From the NCBI GenBank assembly GCA_020002185.1, contig CM034533.1:68856119-68920118 (forward strand): a stretch of 64,000 nt of DNA, written 5' to 3'. Of the stretch, positions 3,019-57,900 are shown piece by piece (the stretch's first letter is position 1; every line of letters begins with the position of its first letter). The notes under the pieces were generated by a model that saw nothing but the letters and a program-made list of their open reading frames with translations, searched no databases and was not told the DNA's origin. This DNA is from Paraescarpia echinospica (taxonomy: Eukaryota; Annelida; Polychaeta; Sabellida; Siboglinidae). Both the position numbers and the translations under genes were made by a program.

Positions 3019-4012
3019 CTATGTGCCATGTCTGTCACAGGCGTTGTCGATCATGGCCCTCCATACCGCACGGTCGTGTGTAGTTTGTAGCAGTTCTGTT
3101 GTGCTCCTTCCACACCATGTTGAGAGACTATCTATTATTTTTATTCTCTGGCGTCCTCTGGATCTTTTTCCTTCTATCTTTCCTGTTGTTACTATTTGTT
3201 CTAACTTTTTCTTTCTCATGACATGGCCTATAAATCGTGCTTGTTGTGTTCAAACTTTGTTGATGATCTTTCTTTTTGATTTGGCTGTCCTAAGGATGAC
3301 TTCATTGCTTTGCTTTGCAGTCCATGGCACTCGCAGCATTCTTCTTAAGAACCACATTTCAGTGACTTCTGTGTTTTTTTGTGATCTTTTGGTTATTGTC
3401 CAGGATTCACATCCATATAGCAATATGGGCTCTATGTAACATTGCAGTACACGTTTTCTCCCTTCAATTGATATATTTTTATTTGTTAAAATGTTTTTCA
3501 TGTGGTGAAAAGCTGTTTTGGCATGAGCAATTCTTCTCTTTATCTCATCGTTGCATCGACCGTCGGATGTTATTAGTGATCCCAGATAGTTAAACGTTCG
3601 GACTTGCTTCAAAACAGTGCCATATGCTATCACGTTGCATGTTGGAGTGTAATTTTTCTTTGAGAAGACCATGATTTCTGTTTTCTTTTTGTTCATGGAC
3701 AGATCTTTTTTCTCAATTTCCCTTATTACTGTATCTAGCATTTGTTGTAGATCTATTTCGTTCTCAGCAATCAGTACCGTGTCGTCTGCATATTGTAAAT
3801 AATTCATGTTGTATCCCCCTACTTGAATGCCTGACATATCTTCTAATGTGCGTAAGATAATCTCACTGTATAGTGAAAAGAGATCGGGTGATAGGACACA
3901 CCCTTGTCTTACACCACGTTTTATTTCTTGAAATTTACTGATGTCATTTTCTATTCGTATTGCTGCTGTTTGTTCCCAGTACAGATTTCTCTCAGATCTT
4001 TCCCATCAATGT
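3019..4012 (-). pseudogene. RTE-type reverse transcriptase, C-terminal part
   Basis: In the minus frame entered by a second frameshift near 3990, the translation gives GVRQGCVLSPDLFSLYSEI and the catalytic box LQYADDTVLIAEN, followed by the thumb motif FNYLGSLITSDGRC, LYGCESWTI and FLRRMLRVPW. An in-frame TGA at about 3247-3249 interrupts the protein. Beyond it the frame continues with the usual tail, RFIGHVMRKKKLEQ and KRSRGRQR, ending at 3019. The active-site YADD is intact, but the breaks mean this copy cannot make a full protein. Confidence 0.85.
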
Positions 4013-6001
4013 TCAAACTTTCCAGCATTGATATGATTTCTTCATGACGAACTCTGTCAAATGCCTTTGTGTAATCAATAAAACATACAGATCTTTTTGC
4101 ACTTCCAGTGCTCTCTCAATCAGTGTTCGTAGGATGTATATTGCATTACTTGTACCTTTATCCTCTACAAATCCACATTGTTCTTCAGCAATTTCCGGCT
4201 TTATTTTGTTTCTCACTCTGGTCATAATATTTTTAAGCAACATCTTGGTGAAGTGACTCATGAGACTAATTGTACGGTGTAGTTCACATTCAATCGCACC
4301 TGGTTTCTTTGGTATTGCTACAAAAATGGATCTGGATAAATCAGTTGGGATTCGTCCGCTGTCATATATTTTGTTCAAGAAATCTGTTACTATATCAATA
4401 CCAAATTCCTCTAAACACTCAATCATTTCAATGGTAATATTATCTGGTCCAGCAGCTTTTCCCTTTTTTATTGATCTGATGGCTTTTCGAACCTCGTCCT
4501 TCAATATAGGAGGATCATCAAAGTTCTTCTTAATTGATGGTCTTTCACCCCTTTCATCATCGTACAGTTCACCAATATATTCTGACCATCTCTCGAGTAT
4601 TTTGTCTTTGTCCATTATTATGTTTCCTTCTTTAGATTTCAGGCAACCTGTAGCTGAGCATGTTCTTTTCCCTGTGATTTCTCTTATTCTAGCATGCATG
4701 GATTTTGTGTCGTGCTTATTCTTCTGTTCAATTTCTTTGCATTTTTCATTAAGCCATTCCTCTTTCGCTAGATTACATTTGGCCGTTATACCATTGTTCA
4801 TTGCTACATATGCATCATGATTTTGCTTAATTTTCCTCCTTTCATCCATCAACTTTAGAATATCGTCAGTCATCCATTTTTTCTTTGCTTTTCTGCATTG
4901 CCTAGGAATAGTTTCTTCTGCAGCCTGTGTTATTGATTCCTTCATTTGTTCCCAGTGGTCGTCCACATCTTGAATGTCATTCAGAACATTGAAACTGTTT
5001 TGTACTGCTACATTGAATTTCTCTTTGATCGCTGAATCTGATTTTAGTATATTCATATCTAGTTTCAGGTTCCTTGTTGCTCTTTTCCTTTTCTTCAGTT
5101 TCAATCGGAACTTGGCTCGCACTGGCACATGGTCGGAATCGCAGTCTGCCCCGGGAAAGGTTTTTGCCACCAGTAGGGCATTTCTAAATCTTTTACTGAC
5201 CAGGATATAATCAATTTGGTTCCGTGTACGGTCTCCTGGACTTTTCCAAGTCCAAAGTCTTCTTGGGTGTTGTTGGAACCAGGTGTTTCCTACAATCATG
5301 TCATGAGATTTTGCCCACTCTATTAGTTTATCTCCTCTCTCATTTCTGCTCCCCAGGCCATATGGTCCAACTATGTCTTCGCATCTTCCCTCACCAACTT
5401 TAGCATTAAAGTCTCCCATAACTATTACAATCTCCTGTGATTTGCAATGTGATTTTGCTAATTCAAGATCATTATAAAATGTCTCGTGCTCTTCATCAGA
5501 TTTGTCTGCGGTTGGTGCGTACACTTGTATGATGTTAATGTTAAATGGTTTGCCATTGATTTTCACCAAGAGGATGCGATCCGATATGGTCCAGTATCCT
5601 AGTAAGCATTTTGCTCTTTCTTCATCCAACATAATTCCAACTCCTCTTTCATGTTTATCGCCTCCTGAGTAAATTATTGTGTTATTATCTGATGTCATCA
5701 GTCCTGCCCCTGTCCATCTAACTTCACACATTCCCATTATATTTATCCCCAATCTTGTCGCTTCTTGTTTGATGTTTTCTAGTTTTCCTTTCTGATATAG
5801 AGTTCTTACATTCCATGCAATATTCAAAATCTCTCTGTTGCACACAGTAGCTGGATGACGATCTGGCGTCACCTGTCGCACATGACTATCCCTACCGAGC
5901 GAGGTGGTCCTGTCAGAACAACCGTTCACGCTGTTAACGTTATCTTCTGTGGTTTTGTGGGTCATGATTGTCTTGGGAAAGATACAGCAGTGGTTTCCCA
6001 T
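4013..6001 (-). pseudogene. RTE-type endonuclease/reverse transcriptase, N-terminal part
   Basis: This 662-codon open frame starts with an endonuclease domain: WNVRTLYQKGKLE, MGMCEVRWTG, QVYAPTADK, VMGDFNAKVG and the C-terminal SDHVPVRAKF, which together make the catalytic Asn, Glu, Asp and His set of the exonuclease-endonuclease-phosphatase fold. The reverse transcriptase follows, with KGKAAGPDNITIEM and CGFVEDKGTSNAIYILR. After DLYVLLI (about 4090) the frame is lost, so the sequence that should carry the first catalytic aspartate (the FIDY region) lies in another frame. The last roughly 20 residues are therefore frameshift product. It would supply the target-nicking and first part of the cDNA-synthesis activity in an intact element. 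Confidence 0.85.
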
Positions 6002-6345
6002 TGCCTTCTTCCGGTTTTTGATTTGTTTTACTCCAAAGAACAGTAGCTCGTACTGAGCTGTGCTCGCCGTCGTTGTCCATACAACTGGATCTTCCGCCGC
6101 CGGAACTGAGGGGACATGATGTCCATCACATCCTCTGCTTTGCTATTTGCCCCATAGCTGGAACATGATTTGTGAGGGTCGGGACGTGTCCAAACACTGG
6201 CGGGCCCTGCACCCTGCACATATCGGGCTCATGCTGCTCTGCCAAGGTTTTTCGTGGCTGGACCACGAGATCCCATGCAGGTTTGGCCTGGAGCCGCAAG
6301 GTGTCCAGTTACCATATGGTGTCGCAAGGAGGCACTGCATAAGTC

Positions 6346-15763: not shown

Positions 15764-18700
15764 GTACGTATTTCATGTAAATAATACATTGTTCATTATA
15801 GTTACTCATTTAGTTAGCATCTAGATTCTGTGTTTTAAGCAATTCATGGAGCACATTAGCAGAAGCTAGATAGATTAGGATATCGGGGGATACAAAATGT
15901 GTCCAGATTTTTTGGGTCATCAGGTCCTATGAATTTATTCAGCTTTTCACAGGACTTAATTTTCCCTAAAAGCATTAAATACAATTTTATCTCAAAAATC
16001 GTCATGTTATATTGTTTTTGTCAACTTGCATGCACAGTATTCACATCTACATTTTATAATCTGATGTCAAAGACAGTATTTTCCAAGACAGTAAACGGAA
16101 AGCAATATTGTAATTTAATTTTAGAAGTTTATTATTATTACTAATTTGTCTTTCCACTTCATATTTATTCATAAATTTATTCATCATTCAAACTCCGATA
16201 ATGAGTACCTGTCATTGAAATGCATTGCATTGTTCAATGTTGGCATCTTTTGTGTGACAAACAGTGGCGCCCCTCAGTGGAGTCTGCAATAATCCAGGAA
16301 AATGTTTTTGACATTTTAGCTCGCATTATGTTCTGTTCAGACAATTAGAATGACAGTGCAAATTTATCTAAGGTTGATATTTGGCAAGTTGGCAGCTTGT
16401 GTAGCTTTACTGCACAAACAATGTCTTGCAAATATGCACAACCTCACGATATATGGTAACGATAAATGGGATATAGCCACTGCGACACTTCTGATATATT
16501 TAATAACATGCTGTTCATTTACCACCACCTTTACCTTGGCGGACAGTCGGTCTGATGTTTTAAAAAGATCCTCCGGCTCAGCTAAAATTTCAGGTCCAAC
16601 TTCCAGTAACATTTTGCGAAGCCTTGAGTATCGTGATTGTACAAAATTACTTTTCCTAAACAATCAGCATATCCCTTATAAAACCGTACTTCAATTTTTA
16701 TTTCATGTACCTTGAGTTTCATGAAATAAATGCCTATCAGCTATTGCAGTACAAAGTATATAATCATAATGTTTTTCAGTACTTGGAATTCAGCAACTTT
16801 GACAAGACATTGAATGTGTTTGACGAAGAATGTGCCGAGAAGGGGAAGCCAGTGGCTCCTACTGATGGACAACCAAAGTCAGATGAAAAACTTATTTCCG
16901 TCCAGGTAATTCATTTGTCTCCTTTCTGTACACACCTGTTTTAACTAAGTGTAGATTTACAATTATGTATTTTCTCTGTTTAAGCGTGTTATTTGTTCCA
17001 GTAACAACTGTACTAGTAGAATTAAACAAATCCAATATACAATATTTATAATGATTTTAAAATATAAATAATTCACCTAATGACTGCACGTATACAGGCT
17101 AGCAACTACAGCAATGATGGAAAATAACAAGCACGTTTGAAAACTATCTTGGTGAAACAAATTGCAGACAAGCAATTTATGGAGTAGTTAAACTATGAGG
17201 GTATATTGATAGAACTGTATTTCAGTCACAATAGCAGAATATTAGGATAAAATTAAACAGTATTTTTAATAACACAAACTAATATGTACAGTCTTCATGA
17301 AATGGTCTACTCGAATATTTTATTTCCAGGTGTATCTTCCATGGCATGCACTAAACATGTCGACATTTTATTTCCATCATAACCCTTAATGATCTGTAAC
17401 TATAATTCACAAAAAACCATTTGCTTAATAATTACGAACTAACAATATACACCCTGTAGTCCAAACTCTTGGCCGATTTTTTACTTTTGTTTTCAGAATG
17501 ACATGTTGAAGCAGTTTCATCTGGGGAAAAATAGAGAATTCTTTCAACTTTGGAATGAGTACATTCCTGATAGCGTTCGCTCAGACGACATCGTTGCACA
17601 AAAGCTCGAGTTTTACCTGCACATCTATTTTGCCATCCACCCGTTAAAAAAAGGAGAAACGGTAGGTTTTTGTAATAATCATTAATAGTTTCTTTTCATA
17701 TACATTTACCGTGCAATCTGGTTTGTTTTACACTCATGCAGCATAGTGTAATATTAGCTGTAAATCTTATTTACTCAATATTTTGTTGATATGGAATTTC
17801 TTCCTGCCACTACCTGTTCTTGTTGTCTGCTCCTGTATTGCTTGAATAATACCTTCCTCATACTATCATTTATTAATGTATAATAATTTAGAAACTTTGG
17901 GTCATGTATTTGTTGACATTACCTCTCAAGTAATTTCTTTTATTTTTTTCTCAAATATTTTGAATGTGTCAATCTTCATTATCAAAATTATTGCCATGCA
18001 AGGGTGTGTCACATAACCATAGTCATGTGACGAGCTGTGAAAACACTTCACTGACAAAGACTGCACAATGCAGTTGAAATATTCAAAAAACAAAAATAGT
18101 AAGTTTAGTTAGAAGTAACGTCAACATATATTGAAATAAGCATACAGAAACCAGAACATTGTTGCATTCATGGACTTCTGTTGTGTCTCTTTAACCTATG
18201 ACGTGTTCTTCTCCCAGGTAAGCCATGAAGATGTTGAGGCTGGAATGGCCAACTTCAAGACATATCTGGAGACACGAGGTTCTTCCCTCAGTCAGACGAC
18301 AGAGTTCCTGCCGTTCTACGCCCTCCCATTCGTACCCAATCCAAAGGTTCATCCATCATACAAGGAACTGTTTTCTGTAAGTTCTTTTTTTCACCATTAT
18401 TTTAATTTAAATACACCTTTTTTCCGTTCATTTTTATTCAAAAATCATGTCACACAATATAATCTACTATTCATTATTAATATAGCTGTATTAGGTGGCA
18501 CATCACAAACCGATTGTAGTTCTGAGTTGTTCTGAGGTGTCATTTGACATGTCACATGACTTGTGTTGTAGGACAAGTGGGCGCCCGAGCTGAGTGACCG
18601 GCTCGACAAGTTTCTCACACTGGCTCTTCAGTCGGTCAGCCAGTCGCGTCTCTTCCAACTATTTGTATCCTTTTTCTTTTGAGCAGCGCTAAGGACTGGA

Positions 18701-21700
18701 TACTGCTATATAAAAACTTACCTTTATTATGGTGTGACGTGATGTGTGGTCACGTGATATAAGAGCCACTGGTGACACTTGACCAGTCTGTGTGAAATAT
18801 TCTTGGTCACAGAAGTAAGCAAAGATGATATTTGTGTCGTTGCTGAGGTTTTAAGAATCCAAACCCTGGGAATTTGTCCATGTCTAATTCTGCATGCTAA
18901 CAGCTTTACAGTTATCAGATGGTCTTATGACACATATAAAAACATGATTTAATGAATATTAATGCATGCACAGCCTGAGTCGATAGCTCCACGAGTACAC
19001 ACCTGCGTGGAAGACTATGTTGTTATTCTCCTTGACTGATGCACAGAGCGCCAGGGGCAAGAGTGAGTATGCAACAGGAATCAGGAAACTTTCTAATCAG
19101 TATCACACCTCAACTTTCTCTGTTTCCACAAAGTTGTTAACTGTCGCTATAAACATATAAATATATTATTATTATTATCAAAGAGCATTCGTTCTGTTAA
19201 TTTTTGTACAAAAAACATTCATCGTAACATTCTCCTGCAATGAACATGTCTGATTTCCTAAACTTGTGATAAACTGTGGTCTTTACGTCTATTTAAGTTA
19301 TATTAGTCAAGTAATCTACTTATTTGAAACAAATACCTATGTTCAAACCCTAGAAATAAGACATTTGCAAAAAATATTTTGCATGAAACTAGTAAACATG
19401 GTTGGATATTTTCATGATAACTCAAGTTGGTGTTTGAATTATTCTATTTGCACGGGTTGATGTATAAATAATTTTGATTGTTCAAAATAAGTGGATTATA
19501 CACTTTAACATAATGATTGTATGTGTCCGGACATGTCAAAAGAATAGCTCTCTGAACACATCAGTATAGAAAATTATAATTTTTTGTAGATTTTTAGGGT
19601 TACGAAAACATATAGTGTTCGAATACAAACTGTCATTATGGTACATATACAGATTACTTTTGTGCCAACAGGAGTAATTATTGTTGAGATCAGATGTTCA
19701 GGAAGCACTCGTATCACTAGCTATAATTGAATTTGTATGTTTATGTACTGTTTGTCAGTATTGTATTTATTACACTTAGGTATAGATTCCTTGGAGCAAA
19801 AATTAAACGACAGTGAAAGACGAGCTGGTGCTTACATGAAGCGATACAACCGCATACAGGTGTGTATAAAGACAACCAACATTAACAACAACAACCGTAT
19901 ACAGGTGTGTACAAAGACAACCAACATTAACAACAACAGCCGTATACAGGTGTGTATAAAGACAACCAACATTAACAACAACAACCGTATACAGGTGTGT
20001 ACAAAGACAACCAACATTAACAACAACAGCCGTATACAGGTGTGTACAAAGACAACCAACATTAACAACAATAGCCGTATACAGGTGTGTATCAAGACAA
20101 CCAACATTAACAACAACAACCGTATACAGGTGTGTACAAAGACAACCAACATTAACAACAACAGCCGTATACAGGTGTGTACAAAGACAACCAACATTAA
20201 CAACAACAGCCGTATACAGGTGTGTATAAAGACAACCAACATTAACAACAACAACCGTATACAGGTGTGTACAAAGACAACCAACATTAACAACAACAGC
20301 CGTATACAGGTGTGTACAAAGACAACCAACATTAACAACAACAGCCGTATACAGGTGTGTATAAAGACAACCAACATTAACAACAACAACCGTATACAGG
20401 TGTGTACAAAGACAACCAACATTAACAACAACAGCCGTATACAGGTGTGTATAAAGACAACCAACATTAACAACAACAACCGTATACAGGTGTGTACAAA
20501 GACAACCAACATTAACAACAACAACTGTATACAGGTGTGTACAAAGACAACCAACATTAACAACAACAGCCATATACAGGTGTGTATAAAGACAACCAAC
20601 ATTAACAACAACAACCGTATACAGGTGTGTACAAAGACAACCAACATTAACAACAACAACTGTATACAGGTGTGTACAAAGACAACCAACATTAACAACA
20701 ACAACTGTATACAGGTGTGTACAAAGACAACCAACATTAACAACAACAACTGTATACAGGTGTGTACAAAGACAACCAACATTAACAACAACAACCTTAT
20801 ACAGGTGTGTATAAAGACAACCAACATTAACAACAACAACTGTATACAGGTGTGTATAAAGACAACCAACATTAACAACAACAGCCGTATACAGGTGTGT
20901 ACAAAGACAACCAACATTAACAACAACAACTGTATACAGGTGTGTATAAAGACAACCAACATTAACAACAACAGCCGTATACAGGTGTGTACAAAGACAA
21001 CCAACATTAACAACAACAATCGTATACAGGTGTGTATAAAGACAACCAACATTAACAACAACAACCGTATACAGGTGTGTACAAAGACAACCAACATTAA
21101 CAACAACAACTGTATACAGGTGTGTACAAAGACAACCAACATTAACAACAACAGCCGTATACAGGTGTGTACAAAGACAACCAACATTAACAACAACAAC
21201 TGTATACAGGTGTGTACAAAGACATTAACAACAACATTAACAACAACAACATTAACTGTATACAGGTGTGTACAAAGACAACCAACATTAACAACAACAA
21301 CATACAGGTGTGTATAAAGACAACCAACATTAACAACAACAGCCGTATACAGGTGTGTACAAAGACAACCAACATTAACAACAACAATCGTATACAGGTG
21401 TGTACAAAGACAACCAACATTAACAACAACATACAGGTGTGTACAACCAACATTAACAACAACAGCCGTATACAGGTGTGTACAAAGACAACCAACATTA
21501 ACAACAACAACTGTATACAGGTGTGTACAAAGACAACCAACATTAACAACAACAGCCGTATACAGGTGTGTACAAAGACAACCAACATTAACAACAACAG
21601 CCGTATACAGGTGTGTACAAAGACAACCAACATTAACAACAACAATCGTATACAGGTGTGTATAAAGACAACCAACATTAACAACAACAACCGTATACAG

Positions 21701-24700
21701 GTGTGTACAAAGACAACCAACATTAACAACAACAACTGTATACAGGTGTGTACAAAGACAACCAACATTAACAACAACAGCCGTATACAGGTGTGTACAA
21801 AGACAACCAACATTAACAACAACAACTGTATACAGGTGTGTACAAAGACAACCAACATTAACAACAACAACCTTATACAGGTGTGTATAAAGACAACCAA
21901 CATTAACAACAACAACTGTATACAGGTGTGTACAAAGACAACCAACATTAACAACAACAACTGTATACAGGTGTGTACAAAGACAACCAATATTAACAAC
22001 AACAATCGTATACAGGTGTGTACAAAGACAACCAACATTAACAACAACAATCGTATACAGGTGTGTACAAAGACAACCAACATTAACAACAACAATCGTA
22101 TAGAGGTGTGTACAAAGACAATCAACATTAACAACAACAATCGTATACAGGTGTGTACAAAGACAACCAACATTAACAACAACAATCGTATACAGGTGTG
22201 TATAAAGACAACCAACATTAACAACAACAACTGTATACAGGTGTGTACAAAGACAACCAACATTAACAACAACAATCGTATACAGGTGTGTACAAAGACA
22301 ACCAACATTAACAACAACAACCTTATACAGGTGTGTACAAAGACAACCAACATTAACAACAAATTGTCTTTATAAGATACTAAATAAAAGTAAATAAGTA
22401 TCAATGCTGTGAGAATTCTTTGATTTATAGTATTGTACTTCCTCTGCTCTACATGTGATGTGGAGATGTTGAAAGTGCTTCATTTAAGTACATTTCTCCA
22501 TCTAGGGCGATTATCACAACTTGATCAGTATCACGGCAGATCTGGTTGATTCGTTGGAATCCACAGTACAGGGCAACCCAGTAAGTACACATAAATTTGT
22601 ATTCTGGATTTTAGAATATCAATAATTATATTATTACTACCAGCTTATTGTATTTTGTGATTCTATTTGGAGTCATCATAGAATGCACTAGAAGCTTTAT
22701 GTTTCATTTTGATTCCCACAAGGACACATCTAGCTGATTGATAGCAACTGATTAGAGACACATTTATAATATCTTACTGTGACATCTCTCTGAATAGAGA
22801 CCGTAGATTGACAGGGTGTTTGTGTGATGGGTGTCACTCAGTAGAAACAATAGATTGACAGTGTTTGATTGACAGATGTCACCAACTAGAGACACTAGAT
22901 TGACAGTGTTTGATTGACAGGTCTCTCCTGAGTACCTGCAGCAGATCTGTGTGCGACTGTTCAGTAACCAGATCCGCCAGTCGGTGGACTTAACGCGACC
23001 AGGCACGGCTGCGGAGGTGCTGCGACAGTCTGTGATGCCACCACAGGGGTAATGTTATGTTCTTTATTGATGTCTCGCTCCAAATCTTTGTATTATGTAA
23101 TTTGGAATATGTTTTTTTAATCTGGAGAAGTTTGATGTTTGAATCTGTAGTTATTCTGTTGGTTTTATGTTTGACATTTTTATTTATTGGTATATTTATA
23201 AGACAATCTAGTTATATAGTTGTGACACAGAAGGTAAACAAATGAAACTATACAAAACAATTACAGTATTGATATATACATTTTTCATTTGAAAATAGTA
23301 CATGGATGCTTGTTCAGATCTAAGCGAAATGTGTAATCGGAATGTCGTATTATGCAACAGATTAGCAAATACACAATGTCTGTGTACTTTTCTAAAACAC
23401 ACATGCACACACACACACACGCACGCACGCACGCACGCACGCACACACACACGCACGCATGCACGCATGCACACACACACACGCATGCACGCATGCACAC
23501 ACACGCACGCACGCACGCACGCATGCACACACACACACATACACACTCGATGTTGTAAGCTATTGCTGATACATTGTTATACTTCCCGCAGCCTGCAGCA
23601 GGGTGAGGCAGCTCCCAATGTGTCCCTGGACTATGAGAAGATCAAGGAGGATGTCAGTCGAGGCACTGAGCGCACTGTAGCCCTACTCCTGCAGGCTCTA
23701 CGATGGGTAGGCAATCACGATCCAGTGACGTCACTGTCACAGAATGTTCTCTCCCTTGGCTCCTTGCACAGAGGGAACAACAGCAACCTTTGTTCTGCTC
23801 TTTCATTGATACTTGTCCAAAGTTTCACGTCTGTCCCCATCTTCAAACATAATAACGTTTTAGTTTGTTCTAATTAATTGTAATAAGTTGTTATAGTAAA
23901 AATCTGCCCTAAATCAGATTTGCATGTCTTAATCAGGTTTTGAATATTTCTTTCATAGAGTTGATTTTTCAGAAACTGACAAAGACTTCTCCACCAGAAC
24001 GAGATGCGATGATGGCAGCTTACATCAACAACGACGTGCTTGGTTGTGTTCGCCCAGGAGCTTACAGGGTATGACAAAAACACGTTCCATGCCAACAAAA
24101 TGTTTACCAATTGAATAACTGCAAATAGGCAACAAATTCTTTACCATTATCAAGAGCACCGACTTATTATTGCTAAAAAATAATTACAGTTCTTGCCATC
24201 GATATAGATGGTATGCATTTGTTATATTGTCAACAACTTTCTAATGATGAAACAAAATAGTTATTTAAATGCACCATATTTCAAATCTTATCCAGTGAGT
24301 TTCTATTATTGTGCACACGTGTCTGCTTAGTAATAACACATGTTCATAGTTTTGTATTGTTTCATGACCAACAAATTCTAGTTAGTTAGCACTTTGTCTT
24401 ACAGGATGTCTTAATATTCCATCCATTTCCAAAACTTATCATTTATCAGTTTTTGGAATTAAAAAAATTATGTAAAATAAAGTACTTGTTTTATTATTGT
24501 TAAAGTGTACAATATTTGCTACAAGCATGCAGAAAGGCCAATCAAAGACAAGAATCGCAACGTACTTACCACTGACGAAGATCAGTTGAAGAGATAGAGG
24601 GAACATTTTGATGACTGCTGAACCGTCCACCACCACAGAACCCACCAGATATCCTACCAGCTGAAGAACTACTCCAGGTAAACTGCGAAAACCAAGCAAG

Positions 24701-27700
24701 GCAGAGATCGAGAAAGCCATTCATCACATGAAGTGAGGGAAAGCTTCTGGCCCAGATGAAATTCCTGCCGAGGCAATAAAGGCTGACATGGAAACCTCCA
24801 CAGAGATGCTGCATGATCTGATTGGGAAGATATGGGATCAAGAAGAAATATCGACTAAATGGAAAGAACGATACCTGGTGAAACTCCCAAAGAAATGCAA
24901 GAACTACAGAGGGATAATACTGCTGTCAGTGCCCGGAAAGATCCTCAACAGAGTCATCTTGGACAGACTGAAAACAGTCGTGGATGCCAGACTCAGAGAT
25001 CACCAGGCAAGCTTCTGTAAAGATAGATAATGCACCGACCAAATAGCTACACTCCGAATCATAGTTAAAAAATCAATGGAATGGGACTCATCCCTGTACA
25101 TAAACTTAGTAGACTATGAGAAGGCGTTTGATAGCCTCGACAGGGAGACACTATGGAAGCTCCTGCAACACTATGGGATACCAGAAAAATTTATTACCCT
25201 GATACAAAGTAACTATGAAAAGACAACAGAAAACAGAAGAAATGGTATCCAGTGGACACCTTGGAGCCAGTTGGAGGACCTGGACTTTGCAGATGACCTC
25301 GCTCTCCTGTCACACAGTCACCAACAGATGACCTCACTCTCCTGTCCCACAGTCACCAACAGATGACCTCACTCTCCTGTCCCACAGTCACCAACAGATG
25401 ACCTCACTCTCCTGCACCCACAGTCACCAACAGATGACCTCACTCTCCTGTCCCACAGTCACCAACAGATGACCTCACTCTCCTGTCCCACAATCACCAA
25501 CAGATGACCTCGCTCTCCTGTCCCACAGTCACCAACAGATGCAGGAGAAAACAGATTCTAAACATAATGTCAACACAGATAGAACTCAACATCAACAGAA
25601 GGAAGACAAAGATCATGAAAGCCAACACGAAGAATAACAGCCCAGTCACATTAGGCAGGGAACCACTGGAAGAAACCGACTCCTTCACATACCTGGGAAG
25701 CGTAATTAACAAGAGTGGAGGCACAGAAGAAGACGTCATAGCAAGGATACAAAAAGCAAGAGAGGCATTACTCATTTTGAGAAACATTTGGAAGGCAAAA
25801 CAAATCAAGCTTAACACCAAATTGAGGATATTCAACTCAAATGTCAAGTCAGTGTTACTCTATGGCTCGGAGACATGGCGAATTACACAGAAAACACTAA
25901 AAAGATGACAGACCTTCATCAACAAATGCCTGCGTAGAATCATACACCTAAAGTGGTCAGACAAGGTATCCAACACTACACTATGGGAATGGACCAAACA
26001 ACTACCAATAGAAAACAAAATAAAGAAGAGAAAATGGAGGTGGTTAGGACATACACTGAGGAAACCTGCAACAAACATCACACGACAAGCAATTACATGG
26101 AACCCCCCCAGGGAAGAGAAGAAGAGGAAGGCCAAGAAACACCTGGCAGAGAGCCAAGGAAAGCGAAAAAAAGCAGATGGGAAAAACCTGGAAAGAAATT
26201 TGAGAAAATGGCATCAAACTGACAACAGTGGAGGACCATGGTCGATGGCATATGGTCTCAGTGAGCAAACAGGCCTAAGTAAGTAAGTACAAGGTTTGCT
26301 TCTTCTGACGCTGACTGTTTTGTGTTGTAGAAAGCCGTATTGAAACATCTCAACTCTGACAGCGAAGTTGTGCGGCAATATGCAGCTCGACTATTCAATG
26401 CTTTTGCTTCACTATGTGATGGTAAGTTGTATTATGCATAAGTTGTAATGAGGTCTCAATTGCTAACGTAGATGTTGATGCTGAAATCATTACAGTTGTA
26501 TGTTTTCCCATGTTGGATTCGATCTATTTTATGTAAGTTTGGAAATAGAATTTTCAACACCTCACCTTGTGCTCCAATGACACCATCAGAGGAGTTGACA
26601 AAATATCTGCAAAGAAAAGTTGAGTGAATTCTAATCTTGAGCAAAATTACTGTGGTTGTAGGCAGGTCCTATCTGGCTCAAAACCCTCACCTGATGCGAA
26701 GTCTCATGGATAATCTTCGGGCTGATGACCGAGACTCCCTCACACGTGAGAATGTTCTCGGGTGTCTACAAAAACTCAGTCTCAGGTAAGTACTGTTAAC
26801 CAAGTCAGTATTAAACATGTTATCTTGAAAAGTGAGTAATACTGTATGTAGAAAAGTAACAGAAAGACGAAGAGATGACTTGGGTATGTACATTCATATA
26901 AGACTCAGTGGGTCTGGTGATACAATGTATTACACTGTCTACACTGCCTGCTCGGCATCTCTCACACACCCGAGAGATAGAGATGACATGTGAATCCTAT
27001 CTTCCTTGGATATAAACACCTTTTTGTTGTGTCATTATTATTGAACCTAGAGAGATAACCCTTTCAGAGCACAGTAGGGCATCGATAAGAGCTCCGGACT
27101 CTCGACTGAGAGAACGCGGGTTCGAATCCTGTGCGGCGGTGTCGAACCTTGGGCAAGTTCGTTTCCTCTACATTGCTTCAGTTCACTCAGCTGTATGAAT
27201 GAGTACCTGGCTATAGACAGTGGTGGTTATTTATGTATGAATAGTCTTCGTGCATTAATTGCAGCATGGCTGACTGCTTCCCAGAGATGTCGAGATGGTG
27301 TTCGATTGAACAGGTCTGCCAGGGAATAAAGTGTAAAGCACTTTGAGCAGTCCTGCGGACTGGATACTGCGCTATATAAGAACTTACCTTTACTTTCAGA
27401 TACTGGAAGCCCAGGTAAAAGTAAAACTGATTTTGTTCCTCATAAAAAATGTTATGTCATTGTTATGAAATATACATTATTATTATTACTTCCTTCGTAT
27501 AACTGGGATGTATCAATCCCAACTACGACAACAGATTAAGGCCCAATGCCAACACACATTTTTGTTATGATATAAAACTACCTTACGAAATTGAACGTAA
27601 TTTTTACATTGCCACATTTCCTAAGACTGCAGTGTTGTGTGGTTTCAGACGAGCTTTGCAGTCGATGATGATCGAGGAGGGCATCATTGGGTGGCTGGTA

Positions 27701-30700: not shown

Positions 30701-33700
30701 CTTTGTGACAGGGAATCCCTGTGATTACCCTATTACCTGTGTGACCATCGTTACAAGCCAGCAGTAATGTTACAATGATTAGCCGACAGCCAAAAACTGA
30801 ATATATGTAATACGATTGTTTACGCAGCAACTGACAAATGCGCAACTGACAAATACACATTTTGAGAGGTCCCATTTTGATAGGGTGATATGTGCTTGGC
30901 AGTCCCTGGCAAGTGAGGATGCTTGTGTTGGCTCCAGGTGAAATACTATGTGTCTGGGTTGTGTTCTCTTGACTGAATGTATTGACATCCTAACCGTGTG
31001 TCGGTAGATCATCCCCTATGTGAATGGCACACTGTACAGTGTCTTGGCGATGCCCACGATACGGGAAGAGGCAAAGGCGATGGTAAGTTTCAACAAGTGT
31101 CTTAGTCTTGTCTTTACTGGATCTGCTACATTGATTCTGTTACACCTGTTAATAATAGTAAAAGAAGGTTTTTGATGCCTAAATCCTAAGAAAATTGAGG
31201 ATTTCTTATGTAGATATGTGTTTCACAAGGTCTCGTTTTCAGCAAGACAAATTTTCATTATTCTTTGTCCGAGCCGTGCTATTTTAGACATACTTTCTGA
31301 CATGACGTTGCATTGTTTGAGAAATACACACAGTTGAGCCTTCAATATTGTGACCTTCGAGGTATATCTTTAGATAAATTATGAAGTTTATCAGTCATAT
31401 GCATTGTAATTATGAACATATAGTATGTCTTTTAAGAAGATTTATGGTTAGAATACAGCGTGGGTGGTGAACTGTCGAAGGGTGTGTTTGTTGTCAGGGA
31501 ATGGAGGAGATCCTCTGCTGCTTTGTGAAGGAAGATCAGCCAGACATGAACCGACAGATCGAGTTCATTATCAAGCAACTCAATTCTAGTGAGTGTTGGA
31601 AGGGTCACAGTTTATTTATATTGCTTATTTATTTTATTATTTAGTGTGCTTTCAGCAGCTTGCATGATTTCAGCTGTTTGGGGGTTCAGAATGCAGTGCG
31701 AGATTGAAGATCAGTTGATTATGTGGGTTCAGTTGTTTGTGTAAGTTCAATTGATTGTGTAAGTCAGTTGACTGTGTCGGTTCAGCTGCTTGTTTGGATT
31801 CATTAATTTGTGTGGATTCAGCTATTTGGAGTTCAGAATGCAATGCAAGATTGAAGATCAGTCGACCAGTAGAGATGTTATCACTGTGTGTATTTTGCTT
31901 GCAGCTGAGGAGCCAGAAGAAACTGAATCTGATGATGAAGATGACGAGGAGGATGAGGTAGGACAGAAGGTCGTCTACTCCTTCCAGTGTGCATGTGGCA
32001 CACAATAAGGGTGTAATTTATATGGTGTATAAATTACCTGGTAATACCTAGCTACTGACAGTGGTAGATATACTGTATGTCAATGAACAATCTTCACGCA
32101 GTAATTACAAAATGTCTTAATGCTTTCCAGAGAAATCAAATGAATGTGTGTGTTGAAATGAGCAGGTCTGCCAGGGGTGAAATCACTTAAGTGCAATGTT
32201 CAATAGAGCGCAGTGGTTCAGTGGATAGAGCATCAGACTCAATCGAGAGAATGCAAGTTCAAATCCTGTGCTGCGGTGTCAAATCTTGGACAAGTTTGTT
32301 AACGAGTGATTGAGTACCTGGCTATAAACAGTGGTGGATGTGTGTGTATGAATAATCTTCGCACATTAATTGCTGCATGGCTGAATGCTTCCCAGAGAAG
32401 TCGAGATAGTGTTCGATTAAACAGGTCTGTGAGGGAGTAAAGTTTAGAGCTTTGAGCAGTCCTAAGGACTGGATACTGCACTATATAAGAACTTAAGCTT
32501 GTGTAATGTGCTTAGAGAAGATTGTAGGAGGACCAGGATGCCATGGAAACAGATCTGGACAAGGCAGAGCTGCTCAAGTTAAGGGCAGGGGAACTGTGTG
32601 GCGACCGACTGCTCAACACCTATTACATCAGCACGATCTCCCCGCCCATATATCGCAAGAGAAAGGTCAGTCTCATACTTTGTCTGTTTGTCAGCACTGT
32701 CTCTCTCCTCTATATCACAAGGCAGCAAGAGAAAGGTCACTCTCATACTACGTCAGCACTGTCTCTCTCCTATATATCACAAGAGAAAGGTTAGTCTCAT
32801 ACTATGTCAGCATGGTCTTCCCACCCATATATTGCAAGAGCACAGTCTCCCCGCCCATATACAGCAAGAGAAAGGTTAGTCTCATACTATGTCAGCACTG
32901 TCTCTCTCTCCTATATATTGCAAGAGAAAGGTTATCTCATACTGTGACCACAGTCTCCCCGCCCATATATCGCAAGAGAAAGGTTAGTCTCATACTATGT
33001 CAGCACTGTCTCTCACTCTCTCTCCTATATATCGCAAGAGAAAGGTTAGTCTCGTACTAGGTCAGCACTGTCTCTCACTCTCTCTCCTATATATCGCAAG
33101 AGAAAGGTTAGTCTCGTACTATGTCAGCACTGTCTCTCACTCTGTCTCCTATATATCGCAAGAGAAAGGTTAGTCTCATACTATGTCAGCACTGTCTCTC
33201 ACTCTCTCTCCTATATATCGCAAGAGAAAGGTTAGTCTCATACTATGTCTGCATGGTCTCTCTCTCCCATATATCGCAAGAGAAAGGTTAGTCTCATACT
33301 ATGTCAGCATAGTCTCCCCACCCGTATATCGCAAGAGAAAGGTTAGTCTCATACTATGTCAGCATGGTCTCCCCACCCATATATTGCAAGAGCACAGTCT
33401 CCCCGCCCATATATCGCAAGAGAAAGGTTAGTCTCATACTACATCAGCACTGTCTCCCTCCTATATATCACAAGAGAAAGGTTAGTCTCATACTATGTCA
33501 TCATGGTCTCCCCACCCATATATTGCAAGAGAAAGGTTAGTCTCATACTATGTCAGCATGGTCTCTCTCTCTCCCGTATATCGCAAGAGAAAGGTTAGTC
33601 TCATACTATGTCAGCATGGTCTCCCCACCCATATATTATAAGAGCACAGTCTCCCCACCCATATATCGCAAGAGAAAGGTTAGTCTCATTCTATGTCAGC

Positions 33701-36700
33701 ATGGTCTCCCCACCTATATATCGCAAGAGAAAGGTTAGTCTCATACTATGTCAGCATGGCCTCTCTCTCCTGTTTATCGCAAGAGAAAGGTTAGTCTCAT
33801 ACTATGTCAGCATGGTCTCCACACCCATATATATTGCAAGAGAAAGGTTAGTCTCATACTATGTCAGCGTGATCTCCTCATCCATATATCGCAAGAGAAA
33901 GGTTAGTCTTATACTATGTCAGGATGGTCTCCCCACCCATATATTGCAAGAGCACAGTCTCCCCGCCCATATATCGCAAGAGAAAGGTTAGTCTCATACT
34001 ACATCAGCACTGTCTCCCTCCTATATACCACAAGAGAAAGGTTAGTCTGTCATCATGGTCTCCCTCCCCATATATTGCAAGAGCACAGTCTCCCCACCCA
34101 TATATCACAAGAGAAAGGTTAGTCTCATACTATGTCAGCATGGTCTCCACACCTATATATCGCAAAAAAAAGGTTAGTCTCATACTATGTCAGCATGGTC
34201 TCCCCACCCATATACCACAAGAGAAAGGTTAGTCTCATACTATGTCAGCATTGTCTCTCTCTCCCATATATCGCAAGAGAAATGTTAGTCTCATACTGTG
34301 ACCACTGTCTCCTCTCTCATATATCGCAAGAGAAAGGTCAGTTGATATTGACAGATCCATTATGTCACTCACCTAGCAACCAGGTCTGACAAGCTTACGA
34401 AAATGGCCTCTGCAAATTTGAAGCTGTTTGTTGGACATTCCGTGGTGTTGTTCGGGTTCGAATCATGTGCAGAGTGTCGAACCTTGGGCAAGTCGAGATG
34501 GTGTTCAATTGAACAGGTCTGCCAGGGAGTAAAATGTAAAGTGCTTTGAGCAGTCCTGAGGACTGGATACTGCGCTATATAAGAACTTACCTTTACTTTT
34601 TTTACTTTGTTACTTGAAGTTCTAGCCCCAATTTGTTTGTGACAGCAAAGAGCAAAGTTGTTTCTGTGAGTACAATGTGCGGGAAAGTTTGATCTAGCAA
34701 ACATATGCTGCTGTAATAATGTAAATGTATATATTTGTAGACATTGTTGCTAAGGCAAAGCTTCATTGGGATGAGTGGGATCTCATGAATAATTAGGATT
34801 CCGACATCAGATTTTGGATCTGTTTGTTGACACTTAAACTTGATATCTAAATGTTAAGAAAGAGTTGTCCAATTAGTGTAGCTGTTCTGTGAAATCTATG
34901 CTAAGAAGATACCTAAACTTTATGCTCCTATCTGTATTGTTTTGGCAATACAATTTTACAGAGATTGCTAAATATTCTGCAGTCCTAGCTCAAACGAAGA
35001 TTTTTATGCATCATTGTTCATGACATAATGCCTAATGATTCTTGTTTATTGCACTTCTTAGCCCAGTTTTCAGAGGATATAGACACCATAGATGTATGTT
35101 ATTATTAACGCTAGTTGTTGTCTGTGTTTGTATTGCATCAGCCACATGATTCTGTTGCCGCTATGGAGGAAGTGCTTCAGCGTCCTGTCACCCCTAGTCA
35201 ACTCAAAGGTGGAGACGCACCTATTGTACATGTCCAGCCTAGAGCCAGGTAAACATTTCTATCACAACAGTCAATCGTAATGTATAAACTATTTACCGAT
35301 ATTCAAGTTTGACTTGTTAATAAAAAACTGACAATTGTATATTATAAGCTATTTCTAACAGGGTGCTTAAATTGTTTTTTAGGACTTGCCAAAGTCTTTG
35401 CAAACTTACAGTGTTCTCAGCAACCTTGTATAATTTATAACTACCGGTATGCTGTTTCTTATGATTTTATCCACTATTTTTCTATGGTTGATTGTCTTTG
35501 GTTTAAAGCGGCTCGTTTGTTGCAGAAATGGTGCCCAGTCATCGCTAAGAAATAGTTCAAGACAGAATTCTCGCCCAAGCTCTCGTGACTTGGTACGACC
35601 TCCAACACGCTGCGGCTCATCCAACGGAACAACTCCTCGGGTGGCTCCACCTGTTGGTGGGTAGTGGTACTAGTTGGTTGAAGCTGTTGGTTTCTGTTAA
35701 GCATTGTTTATCGTATTGCAGTTACTATGTATCATTTAGGATACAAAGTAATGGTGCAATATGAAAAAGCATTTCATATGAAAAAATTTCTATTCATTCC
35801 CAAAGAAAAATATTATTATGTTCACAGATTGTTTTAACATTTTTGATTAGTAACGGTTATGTGGAAATTAGTGAAACAAGCTCATTACAACAAATTTGGT
35901 AGCAAATATAATAAATTGATTGTGTCAATCGAACTGGTTTTGGTGTGCTTTCAGCGACTGATAATGAGGGTTCTGAACTGATTACGAAGGCTATTGGTCA
36001 GACAAGAAACCTGGCCTTGGGCACTGACAGCAAGAGTGTGAAGCCTTCCCCCAAGGCATTGCAGAAGGTCAATGCCAATGGAAAGTGAGTGATTGTTAGT
36101 GGTGCATCTGGTTTTGATGGAACATGTTTAAAAATACACAAAGCTTACCTGTTGATGTTATTGAATTTTGCATTCACATTGCGAGTCATTTTGCACAGTT
36201 TATCATCTGTATACAATAAATTGTTGGAGTTATCGCCAAAGATGTGCAAAAGGTATACTTGTGATATACATGTGCTGTGGTCTACATCAAAATTACATAC
36301 TCTATTATGAAGTATGGATTGGGTGATATGTTCAGCACTGTGTAACTGAGTGTATATCATTTTATAAAATGTAATAGTAAAAAACAAGAATTAGTAAGAT
36401 TGCCATGCAGAGAATATACCCAGGCAGACAGCAAGGGGTCAAAGAAGCTATTCCCTTATCAAGAATCCACCATTTGTTCATCTGTATGAAGTCTGTGTCT
36501 GTCCTAACGGCGCAGGACAAATCAGGGTTTAAACAGTGACTTGCTGTCAAATTTATTGTAAAACATTTCCTTTACGTAAGTTACCAGAGTTATGCTTATC
36601 ATGATATAAACCGTGCACTGAAGAGGGTTCATATCTCATCCAAGATAAATGATAACAAGTGTGAGCATGTGAACTATACGTAAAGGGGTTCAGGGCAAAA

Positions 36701-48724: not shown

Positions 48725-49520
48725 CTCTTCACCTTCCCCACTCCTTTCCCACCACATTCCCCACTCCTTTCCCATCACCTTCCACATCACCTTCCCTACT
48801 CCTTCCCCATCATCTTCCCCATTCCTTCCCCATCACTTTCCCCACTCCTTTCCCAACATCTTCCCCACTCCTTCCCCATCATCTTCCCCATTCCTTCCCC
48901 ATCACCTTCCCCACTCCTTTCCCAACATCTTCCCCACTCCTTCCCCATCACCTTCCCTACTCCTTCTCCATCATCTTCCCCACTCCTTCCACATCACCTT
49001 CCCTACTCCTTCCCCATTACCTTCCCGACTCCTTCCCCATCATCTTCCCCATTCCTTCCCCATCACCTTCCCCATCCACTTCCCGACTCCTTCCCCATCA
49101 CCTTCCCTACTCCTTCCCCATCACCTTCCCCACTCCTTCCCCATCACTTTCCCCACTCCTTTCCCATCACATTCCCCATTACCTTCCCCATCACCGTCCG
49201 CATTACCTTCCCGACTCCTTCCTCATCACCTTCCCTACTCCTTCCCCCTCACCTCCCCCACTCCTTCCCCATCACCTTCCCGACTCATTCCCATCACCTT
49301 CCCCATCACCTTCCCTACACCTTCCTCATCACCTTCCCCACTCTTTCCCCATAACCTTCCCCACTCCTTTGATCTAGTCCCATCACCTTCCCCCCATCAC
49401 CTTCCCCACATCCTTCCTCGTCTCCTTCCCAATACTTCCCAACCCATTCCCCATCCCTTCCTCTTCCCTTTCCCCATCTCCATCTCCTTCTCCATCCCCT
49501 TCCATCACCTCCTTCCCCAC
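48725..49520. repeat. pyrimidine-rich minisatellite (CCTTCCCCATCA / CCTTCCCCACTC)
   Basis: About 800 bp of interleaved units such as CACCTTCCCCACTCCTTCCC and CATCACCTTCCC. One strand is nearly pure pyrimidine. Long Pro/Ser/Phe open frames on the plus strand are artefacts. Confidence 0.95.
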
Positions 49521-54900: not shown

Positions 54901-57900
54901 ATGGGTGACATATATTGGACTACAGTGGTCCTGATATTGGACCAGGTGGTCCAATATAATTGCTTCTGGTTCAATATACGTCATCCATCAATTTTTGATG
55001 CTTTGAAAGAAACCAAGGTTCAGCACACACTTCATACTTATAAAAAGGTAAATCACGAAAACTACATCGTTCCAGTGAGCATACAAATGACATGTGACGA
55101 CTAAGCGCCAAATAGATTCGACATAATTTAATTCTGAACTGAGAACAAACAATTATAGTTTGTCACGAATACAGGAATACACCAACGAAGTGGTTGCCAT
55201 GATAGAATCTGTCACGGATAAACGAACAAGCCAACGAAATAATGGCCAGTAGTGTCTAATAATGAAAAAAAGATACCAGTCAGTAATTGATGGTCCCTGA
55301 TCATCAAATTAGGAATCTTAATTATCTTAATTGGATCTGGTGTCTTTCTGTTTCTTTTGCCAACTGTTCAGTTATCCCTACTTTTGTGCCTTTTGACTTT
55401 TGTTGTTAAAGGTCTTTTATATGGACTGGAGGTTATGATTTCCGACTGGGTGGTTCTTCTTTTGGCCCTAGAAATCGCTGGTTTTGGGATGGGACATAGC
55501 ATTGCAGGAGTGATGACCTTTCTATCCAGCTCTGGTTGATCAGTCAGCTGCCCCGTGATTGGGACTAATGCTTCATAATGACCAGCATCTTCACTCAGAT
55601 TTAGGTATTTGACCATAATTGCACCAGAAATTCCATCCCAAATTCAAGTACACTCTGGTCGTTGTAGATAGCGTGCCGTGGCAACGATCTCTATCTCCCC
55701 AATCACTTCACTGGGATTCGCCATCGATGCGATTTTGTCCTCGATAGATGCGTAACACAGTCTCTGAGGTAGACATGTGTTCACCATCCTCTCATCAATG
55801 TTTTCATAAAGGCCAAAGTTGTCTAGCATATGTGCAACCATGTTGGATCGTAGTGCATCAGCGGAAGTCATTTCTCGTATTCTCATTCGTAGGTTCTTTA
55901 AATTGCCATCGTTGTCTCTTTCTGCATACTGCATATAGAGATCTTAACAACCAACAAAGGCTCGGAAGAAACAACGTCATCTGCGTTGATTGCGCCACAC
56001 ATGAAACCACTCTGTCTGCTGCTTGTGGATGGGCATGGATCACTGGACTGTTCTCGCTCGTGGACAGGCTTTGGTTGTAGGACTGTTGTTCGCTTGTAGA
56101 CGGGCTTGGGTCATTGGACTGTTGTTGCTCACTCGCGGACAGACTAGGCTTGTTAGACTGTTGATCCCTCCTGGATGGGCATGGGTTGGTTGGCTGAAAC
56201 TATTCTGCCTGGTGCTTATTGATGAGCTCAGCTCATTCTGTTGCTTGCTTGTGGATGGACATGGATCAGTGGATTGTTGCTCGTTCGTGGATCTCGCTCA
56301 CGGACGTGTTCGTTGTATTTGACGAGTTGTCATTCTGCATAGTGGCATCTCTGGCAGAATTCGATGGAACATCTATACCAGTTTCCGAGTAGGACAACTC
56401 GAACCTTCCAGCCGCAGCCAAATATACATCAGTCCATATGTTCCGATCACAAGGCCAAATGCCTGTGCACTTGAAACCACTGGCAGCAGCTGCCATGGAA
56501 GCATAGCGTACATATGTCCTTCCGAAGATACGGCAGACTGAGGAGATCGTGACTGTAGTTTTATCGGTCCTCAGCCAACTGTCACATTCCTCATTATAAT
56601 AGGTCATCAGAGGTTTATAGAAAACCCGATCAAGGGATTGGAGACGATGCGTTGTGTGCAGAGGAAGAGATAATATGAAGATTCCATGGTCCCGGGCGTA
56701 TTGGATTGCTTCAGTATTTTTCGTGTGTGACGAATGGCCAACAAGAATCAACAGAACATGTTTGTCTTTGGTGCAGCCGACATGAGATACAAAGTGCTTC
56801 AGCCAGACAACGAAGAGTTCCTTGTTCATCCAGTCTGATTCATTATTCACTATGACGCTTCCAGGTGGCGCCCCTTCCTTCAATGATTCTATTATGTGTT
56901 TACGCCGGAAAAATATCTTTTGTGGAACATATTTGGCCCCTGCACTCATGCTACACACTACTGTTGTAGTAAAGCCTCTCACCACTAATACGAGATCCGA
57001 TTTGCTTTTTCTCTCTTTTTCCAAGGATCCGGCCAGGCTTCTGCACAGTTGTTATACCCGATTCATCCATGTTAAAAACATTTGTAGCATCGAATCCGTA
57101 CGTGTCAACCAATGTTTCTAGTTTATCGTAGAACTCATACACACTCTCACGATTGAACCCTTTGGCTCTCGTAATAGAAGTTGCCTCGGCTTGACGGAGG
57201 GAGAGTTCGGGGTGTCTCCTCATAAAATCACGGTACCAATGTCTGCTAGCTGCATGTTTTTCAGTGTTGAAGCAATGCCTTATCCCATTCGCTTCAGCCA
57301 ACTGATATGCCATATCCATCAATTCTTTCCTGTTCATACCAATCAGCATATTTTCCAAAACATGCTCCACTAGCATTTTCTCCAACTCTGGCGGCAGAGT
57401 GCAAGGGCGACCAAAACACTTTCTTGGACCATTAGCGATTTTGTTTTTGTTGTTTAGGTGCCGCTTCATGGTAGCCTTCGGAATCCCATAGGTCTTGCTA
57501 GTTGCATTGAGGCCGGCGTTTCCATTTCTGAATGACATGACCGCTCTACCCAGTTCCTCTTGGGTCCACTTTCCGTATTTGCCTCTGGAACATAAAATTT
57601 GTCAAACAGATGCAACATTCCCAAGTATTTCCTTGATTTAATATGGTATTTTGTATCTAAAACGAAATAAACCCATTCTCATGTTTTAGTTTTGATCGTT
57701 CTGGCAGGAGGGGCTAGGTTAGAATACGGGATGTTTTTGCCCAAATGAGGGTGATCGACTTATGATGCTTGCTGTGGTTTATGTATACGTGCTACATATG
57801 CAAACCTATACATTTGTCAAAGCTCATAAACTTACCAATCAAATTTTTTGTTTATGTGGTGAGATTTCGATAACAAATTTGCCAAGGTAATACAATTATT

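Follow-up and report, generated by a model that had tools for sequence, protein, structure and literature searches.

In intron 7 of the human factor VII gene (F7), the number of tandem repeats lies in single digits, and the first repeat element reportedly spans the exon 7/intron 7 boundary. For these 37-base-pair (bp) repeats, the available text of one study states that only the most upstream 5' splice site (donor) is used in the normal condition (PMC6627357). The parts available of two papers on amphioxus describe minisatellites named mirages in Adh3, in the globin genes BflGb6 and BflGb9 and in TnC, with a similar case in PGBD5; many of the units carry AG/GT signals, and the mirages are reported not to interfere with regular splicing (PMC3087553, PMC3902484). 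The same partial text of PMC3087553 gives 6 and 3 units for the BflGb6 mirage in two haplotypes and discusses how introns can be gained when AG/GT-containing segments are duplicated in tandem. Here we analysed a 64-kilobase (kb) stretch of DNA, referred to as the window, that contains an ARMC9 gene with a 45-bp minisatellite at its exon 7 donor (array 1) and a second, more degenerate repeat at its exon 19 donor (array 2; Table 1). Array 1 is a boundary-spanning minisatellite that most likely works like that of factor VII, as judged from its structure and the gene model.

Tandem Repeats Finder (TRF) assigned array 1 a period of 45 bp, 56.0 copies and 93% matches. The first unit straddles the exon 7/intron 7 boundary, with 14 bp of exon and 31 bp of intron, and its exon part, ACAACCGCATACAG, matches the unit consensus at 13 of 14 positions, the sole mismatch being a synonymous C/T difference. 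When up to two mismatches were allowed, ATACAG/GTGTGT occurred 56 times between 19854 and 22336, 55 of them exact; the one inexact copy, ATAGAG/GTGTGT at 22100, has a single mismatch. The exon 7 donor itself (19859/19860) is the first of the 56, and the 55 copies downstream read CAG/GTGTGT in 54 cases and GAG/GTGTGT in one. Of the distances between neighbouring donors, 51 out of 55 measure 45 bp, and the others are 39, 39, 42 and 56 bp. Array 1 itself is beyond chance. An earlier note on this DNA had described about 55 copies of a 45-bp unit that carries the donor; the unit length and the presence of the donor in it were borne out, and the count is 56 including the authentic donor, or 55 downstream of it. 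The same note had the array start exactly at the end of exon 7 and finish at 22365, whereas it starts 14 bp inside the exon and TRF ends it at 22362.

The note had also named the gene as ARMC9, which the matches of three ARMC9 Pfam models to the conceptual product confirm (ARMC9_ARM, E 2.5e-51; CTLH_Armc9, 2.5e-49; ARMC9_LisH, 2.5e-12). The exons were assembled from the reading frame and splice consensus, and all 23 introns are GT-AG. The number 7 given to the array-bearing exon holds only if an inferred microexon 6 is counted; its flanks are cacag and gtgagt, and the peptide encoded over it, SARGKS, is identical in two tubeworm ARMC9 proteins, P0001 and P0002. Upstream of this microexon, exon 5 (18572-18664) has a very weak donor, TTT/GTATCC, with a U1 duplex energy of -1.3 kcal/mol. 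The proposed in-frame joining of exon 8 to exon 7 stands in the 24-exon model, and the junction IQ/GDYHNL is present in both tubeworm proteins. Among the best 120 of 1593 matches with E <=0.001, 119 carry Q-x-DYH at the exon 7/8 junction, and 118, including both tubeworm proteins, combine this motif with an ARMC9-like left flank and no insertion; the two exceptions are P0055, in which the left side is unrelated, and P0098, which lacks the motif.

The closest ARMC9 among the matches listed is that of Lamellibrachia satsuma (539/560 identical, 96.2%, over the first 560 residues), followed by that of Ridgeia piscesae (536/560, 95.7%), both species belonging to the Siboglinidae, Annelida. These two proteins are further apart from each other (535/569, 94.0%) than either is from the model described here; Capitella ARMC9 is identical at 307 of 437 positions (70.3%), and that of amphioxus (Branchiostoma) is listed at 52%. 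Judged on this one gene, the window most likely derives from a vestimentiferan tubeworm, and an amphioxus origin is unlikely. A search for ARMC9 in viral contigs returned three stretches that fit a pattern, none of them a relative, and the array 1 unit, looked for in prokaryote genome contigs in case they held host DNA, had no exact match there.

Table 1. Positions in the window of the ARMC9 gene, the exons under discussion and the repeats at or near its splice sites.
Feature	Position	Strand	Basis
ARMC9 gene, 24 coding exons, 834 amino acids, start codon to stop codon	15713..38012	+	conceptual model
Exon 6, 16-nucleotide microexon (inferred)	19047..19062	+	demanded by the reading phase between exons 5 and 7
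Exon 7, ending KRYNRIQ, donor CAG/GTGTGT	19780..19859	+	gene model
Array 1, 45-bp minisatellite, 56 units	19846..22362	+	TRF and unit parsing
Exon 8, starting GDYHNLIS	22506..22580	+	gene model
Short degenerate 45-bp array, 2.6 copies	22804..22920	+	TRF; ends on the final base of intron 8
Exon 19, ending YRKRK, donor AAG/GTCAGT	32528..32665	+	gene model
Array 2, degenerate repeat whose founder unit spans the exon 19/intron 19 boundary	32628..34343, ends approximate	+	TRF rows 32723-34342, donor list, founder aligned with one unit

The earlier note had mentioned neither the second donor array of the gene nor the precedent in human factor VII intron 7. Judged by eye, the unit of array 2 consists of about 38 bp of exon and about 17 bp of intron. 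Including the authentic donor 19, array 2 has 27 AAG/GTYA donors, spaced by 52-62 bp in 19 of 26 steps and by 70-109 bp in the remainder, and one further copy has lost its donor site. Its longest exact repeat is 104 bp, and it is more degenerate than array 1. When copies of the 24-mer centred on each splice site of the gene (23 donors, 23 acceptors) were sought within 3 kb (at least 19 of 24 matches), only donor 7 (55 copies) and donor 19 (25 copies) had any. Array 2 also holds a strong acceptor-like site at 32694 (score 10.5), which together with an array donor after it could define a 41-nucleotide decoy exon (32695-32735) in intron 19. Neither tubeworm protein extends to exon 19 and the array 2 site: past exon 18 that of Lamellibrachia continues as a long HPGSG/LAVTT repeat, and that of Ridgeia ends after exon 17.

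Array 1 resembles the F7 repeat in that its first unit straddles the exon/intron boundary and its downstream units repeat the donor. It differs in unit length and number (56 units of 45 bp, compared with far fewer of 37 bp), in being accompanied by a second array in the same gene, and in that donor use has been reported for the human F7 gene and is deduced for array 1. The earlier note had regarded the locus as a large example of the amphioxus mirages. The architecture does match as far as the available text on mirages describes it, and with 56 units array 1 is large beside the 6 and 3 given there for BflGb6; however, the name was given in cephalochordates, and the ARMC9 protein here is 96.2% identical to that of Lamellibrachia satsuma as against 52% for Branchiostoma. 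Because the host is thus most likely a siboglinid and not a cephalochordate, we do not class array 1 as an amphioxus mirage. It shares with the proposed route of intron gain the multiplication of a splice signal by tandem duplication, but no new exon or intron is shown to come from it, and we do not propose that intron 7 is a new one. Among the titles and opening parts of abstracts of the open papers searched, we found no boundary-spanning minisatellite in an annelid. The available text of an earthworm metallothionein paper treats intronic minisatellites without placing them at a splice site (PMC12783039), and the examined part of the Ridgeia genome paper makes no mention of such arrays (PMC9921365).

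We propose that array 1 is a passive array, produced by local duplication over the donor, and that it does no harm because splicing takes the donor furthest upstream; we consider this explanation likely on the basis of our computational analysis. The view in the earlier note that the gene tolerates dozens of decoy donors is accordingly plausible. The array would have been founded by a local tandem duplication that spanned the donor of ARMC9 exon 7, and slippage or unequal exchange would have enlarged and shuffled it, leaving 55 extra donors, 54 of which match the authentic one over the nine bases around the cut. Selection of the 5' splice site would then pick the most upstream donor and complete the original short exon 7, and the remainder of the array would be removed as the start of intron 7, in the way reported for the 37-bp repeats of factor VII. 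Either 5'-to-3' scanning or exon definition may lie behind this choice of the first donor. We infer that array 1 has no function of its own, and likewise that it originated in this manner.

Under this proposal the first donor of array 1 would be the one used, which the homologous proteins fit (118 of the 120 listed); its joining to exon 8 gives an intact frame and the complete 834-residue ARMC9. U1 pairing fails to single out the authentic site. The first donor shares a duplex energy of -10.4 kcal/mol with 54 of the 55 copies, the remaining copy having -7.4 kcal/mol, and in array 2, where the authentic donor has -6.5 kcal/mol, 23 of 26 decoys have -6.7, one has -6.5 and two have -4.1. Because these energies are equal in 55 of the 56 array 1 donors and nearly equal in array 2, strength is a poor guide, and donor strength as the discriminator between authentic and decoy sites is unsupported. 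Taking the first donor is the simplest rule that yields ARMC9 at both exon 7 and exon 19. With respect to acceptors, the AGs of array 1 all score 3.0 or less, whereas the authentic acceptors have a median of 8.0.

Several points weigh against our proposal. A donor matrix built on the 21 other donors of the gene, unlike the U1 energy, slightly favours the authentic donor 19 (6.5) over the array 2 decoys (5.9). The comparison of acceptors carries little weight, its matrix being derived from 23 sites with an authentic range of -4.5 to 12.3, and 107 of the 126 AGs in array 1 score at least as high as the worst authentic acceptor. Upstream of the copies the mean pyrimidine content is 0.45, which is low yet inside the authentic range of 0.39-0.89. 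Computed RNA accessibility does not discriminate, with values of 0.001 or less for all array 1 copies and about 0 for most authentic donors. In addition, the scanning model was put forward for mammals and would have to carry over to annelids, and the two tubeworm proteins are database entries, considered here at the protein level. Finally, 30 of the 55 array 1 decoys leave the frame open, and therefore decoy use would leave no trace in the present analysis.

This last point bears on the possibility that inner donors of array 1 are chosen at some rate, which would produce ARMC9 isoforms with 1 to 30 in-frame inserts of 15 residues between the N-terminal region and the ARM repeats. The 45-bp unit is a multiple of three and open in the exon frame, the nine-base donor is the same in 55 of 56 copies, and 31 of the 56 donors, namely the authentic one and the next 30, keep the full open reading frame (ORF), so that use of the first 30 decoys would insert one to thirty units. 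However, donors 32-56 (25/56) are out of frame, and use of these last 25 decoys would shift it. The ORF across array 2 is kept by the authentic donor only (1/27); 19 of the 26 decoys shift the frame and 7 reach a stop. Tolerance through the reading frame is not general, because all 26 array 2 decoys fail, and the frame is not guarded as a general rule. By our own estimate, a unit that is a multiple of three and open in the right frame arises by chance about one time in six. When the translation of array 1 was compared with proteins of about 290-924 residues that share short words with it, one match was found in 231 candidates, the Ridgeia ARMC9 at 5% query coverage, which we took as normal exon 7. 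We therefore regard partial use of the inner donors as unlikely.

The variation among the units bears on two other explanations. The 55 inter-donor units comprise 17 different sequences, arranged without periodicity, and four units are odd in length; when the 51 full-length units are aligned, 10 of the 45 columns are variable, mostly position 8 and positions 35-38. The copy number could be an assembly artefact, the true array being much shorter or longer and wrongly expanded or collapsed, as repeat arrays are often misassembled and the longest exact internal repeat of array 1 is 277 bp. Against simple copying of one unit stand the number of different sequences, their irregular order and the odd lengths; 277 bp is well inside long-read length, and array 2, with its longest exact repeat of 104 bp, is more degenerate still. 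We consider an artefact very unlikely. A homogenisation test on the 51 full-length units, with the four odd-length ones dropped and six lags tried, gave no sign that neighbouring units are alike (at lag 1, 80% of shuffles were at or below the observed difference), and likeness was slightly above that of shuffled arrays at lags 2, 3 and 5 (2-4% of shuffles) and not at lags 4 and 14.

Array 1 could also be kept for a function in RNA, such as a bank of sites for the U1 small nuclear ribonucleoprotein (snRNP) or an A/C-rich enhancer for exon 7. A U1 snRNP bank could guard a transcript against premature polyadenylation, and an A/C-rich enhancer could strengthen an exon. The donor 12-mer is retained in 55 of 56 copies, and array 1 consists of 46% A, 23% C, 14% G and 17% T. 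However, across the full-length units the donor 12-mer was not significantly less variable than the other columns (1/12 versus 9/33 variable columns; Fisher p 0.25), and selection on the donor within the units is accordingly unsupported. Such arrays also arise off the ARMC9 splice sites: a minisatellite of seven 35-bp copies at 25290-25541, with CAGATG at both ends, lies inside an insert in intron 11, away from all splice sites of the gene model. We consider a role in RNA very unlikely as well.

The intron 11 insert has weak reverse-transcriptase matches (Pfam RVT_1, two pieces, below cut-off), and we read it as a long interspersed nuclear element (LINE). Since its array lies away from the ARMC9 splice sites, the array-making process need not be tied to splicing; the genome also makes such minisatellites where there is no splice site. 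The CAGATG at both array ends is the pattern expected if duplication began between short direct repeats. In array 2, TCAGCAC is found in exon 19 (32628) and again in the intron (32691), and in array 1, ACAAC stands at the array start in the exon and is seen again within the intron portion of the unit and close to the array end. These are short words within repetitive sequence, and an origin of the arrays from direct repeats is put forward tentatively.

Whether the arrays of ARMC9 fall on splice sites more often than expected was assessed for this one gene, and the excess is suggestive at best. Array edges lay within 15 bp of a splice site in two of six arrays (random mean 0.74, p 0.17) and within 40 bp in three of six (random mean 1.70, p 0.22). 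Nearby copies were found for 2 of 23 donors and 0 of 23 acceptors, which is no excess over random gene positions (23%), because arrays occupy about a fifth of the gene. Founder units that span a donor numbered two, with 0.22 expected (two or more, P 0.018); for either kind of site the corresponding values were P 0.064 for two or more and P 0.006 for three or more. The founder-unit test as a whole was post hoc, was run on six hand-picked arrays without an AC-rich repeat at 23397-23546, and counted a doubtful third site before exon 9. That third site belongs to the short array in intron 8, in and around which five TGACAG copies occur. No 24-mer copy centred on the exon 9 acceptor was found within 3 kb at 19 or more matches, and exon sequence is not clearly included, so that its status as a splice-site array is doubtful.

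It has long been asked how the spliceosome chooses among equivalent 5' splice sites, and natural arrays of identical donors provide a clean test. This locus presents, in a protostome, 56 donors in a row, 55 of them identical, and a second exon followed by 26 donors, 24 of which come close to the authentic one in strength. Its new aspects seem to be the annelid host, the size and the presence of two such arrays in a single gene, and provided that the tubeworm origin holds, boundary-spanning minisatellites occur outside the chordates as well. We offer as a tentative and rather doubtful extension that siboglinid genomes, like that of amphioxus, might be prone to arrays founded on splice sites, that the annelid spliceosome might work strictly 5' to 3' and pass over dozens of downstream donors that are identical or of equal strength, and that some in-frame ARMC9 decoys might be used, giving a protein of variable length with a range set by the allele.

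Elsewhere in the window, a 709-residue open frame on the minus strand (4013-6142) matches Pfam Exo_endo_phos and Exo_endo_phos_2 and probably encodes a LINE endonuclease/reverse transcriptase, and a 251-residue open frame lies on the same strand at 3250-4005. Open frames at 56266-57601, minus strand, have a Pfam DDE_1 match, with HTH_Tnp_Tc5 below cut-off, and are read by us as a putative transposase of the pogo/Tigger type. A C-rich minisatellite of about 770 bp (48730-49499) has no exon tied to it, and a stretch coding for collagen triple helix (Pfam Collagen) is found on the plus strand at 58866-59417.

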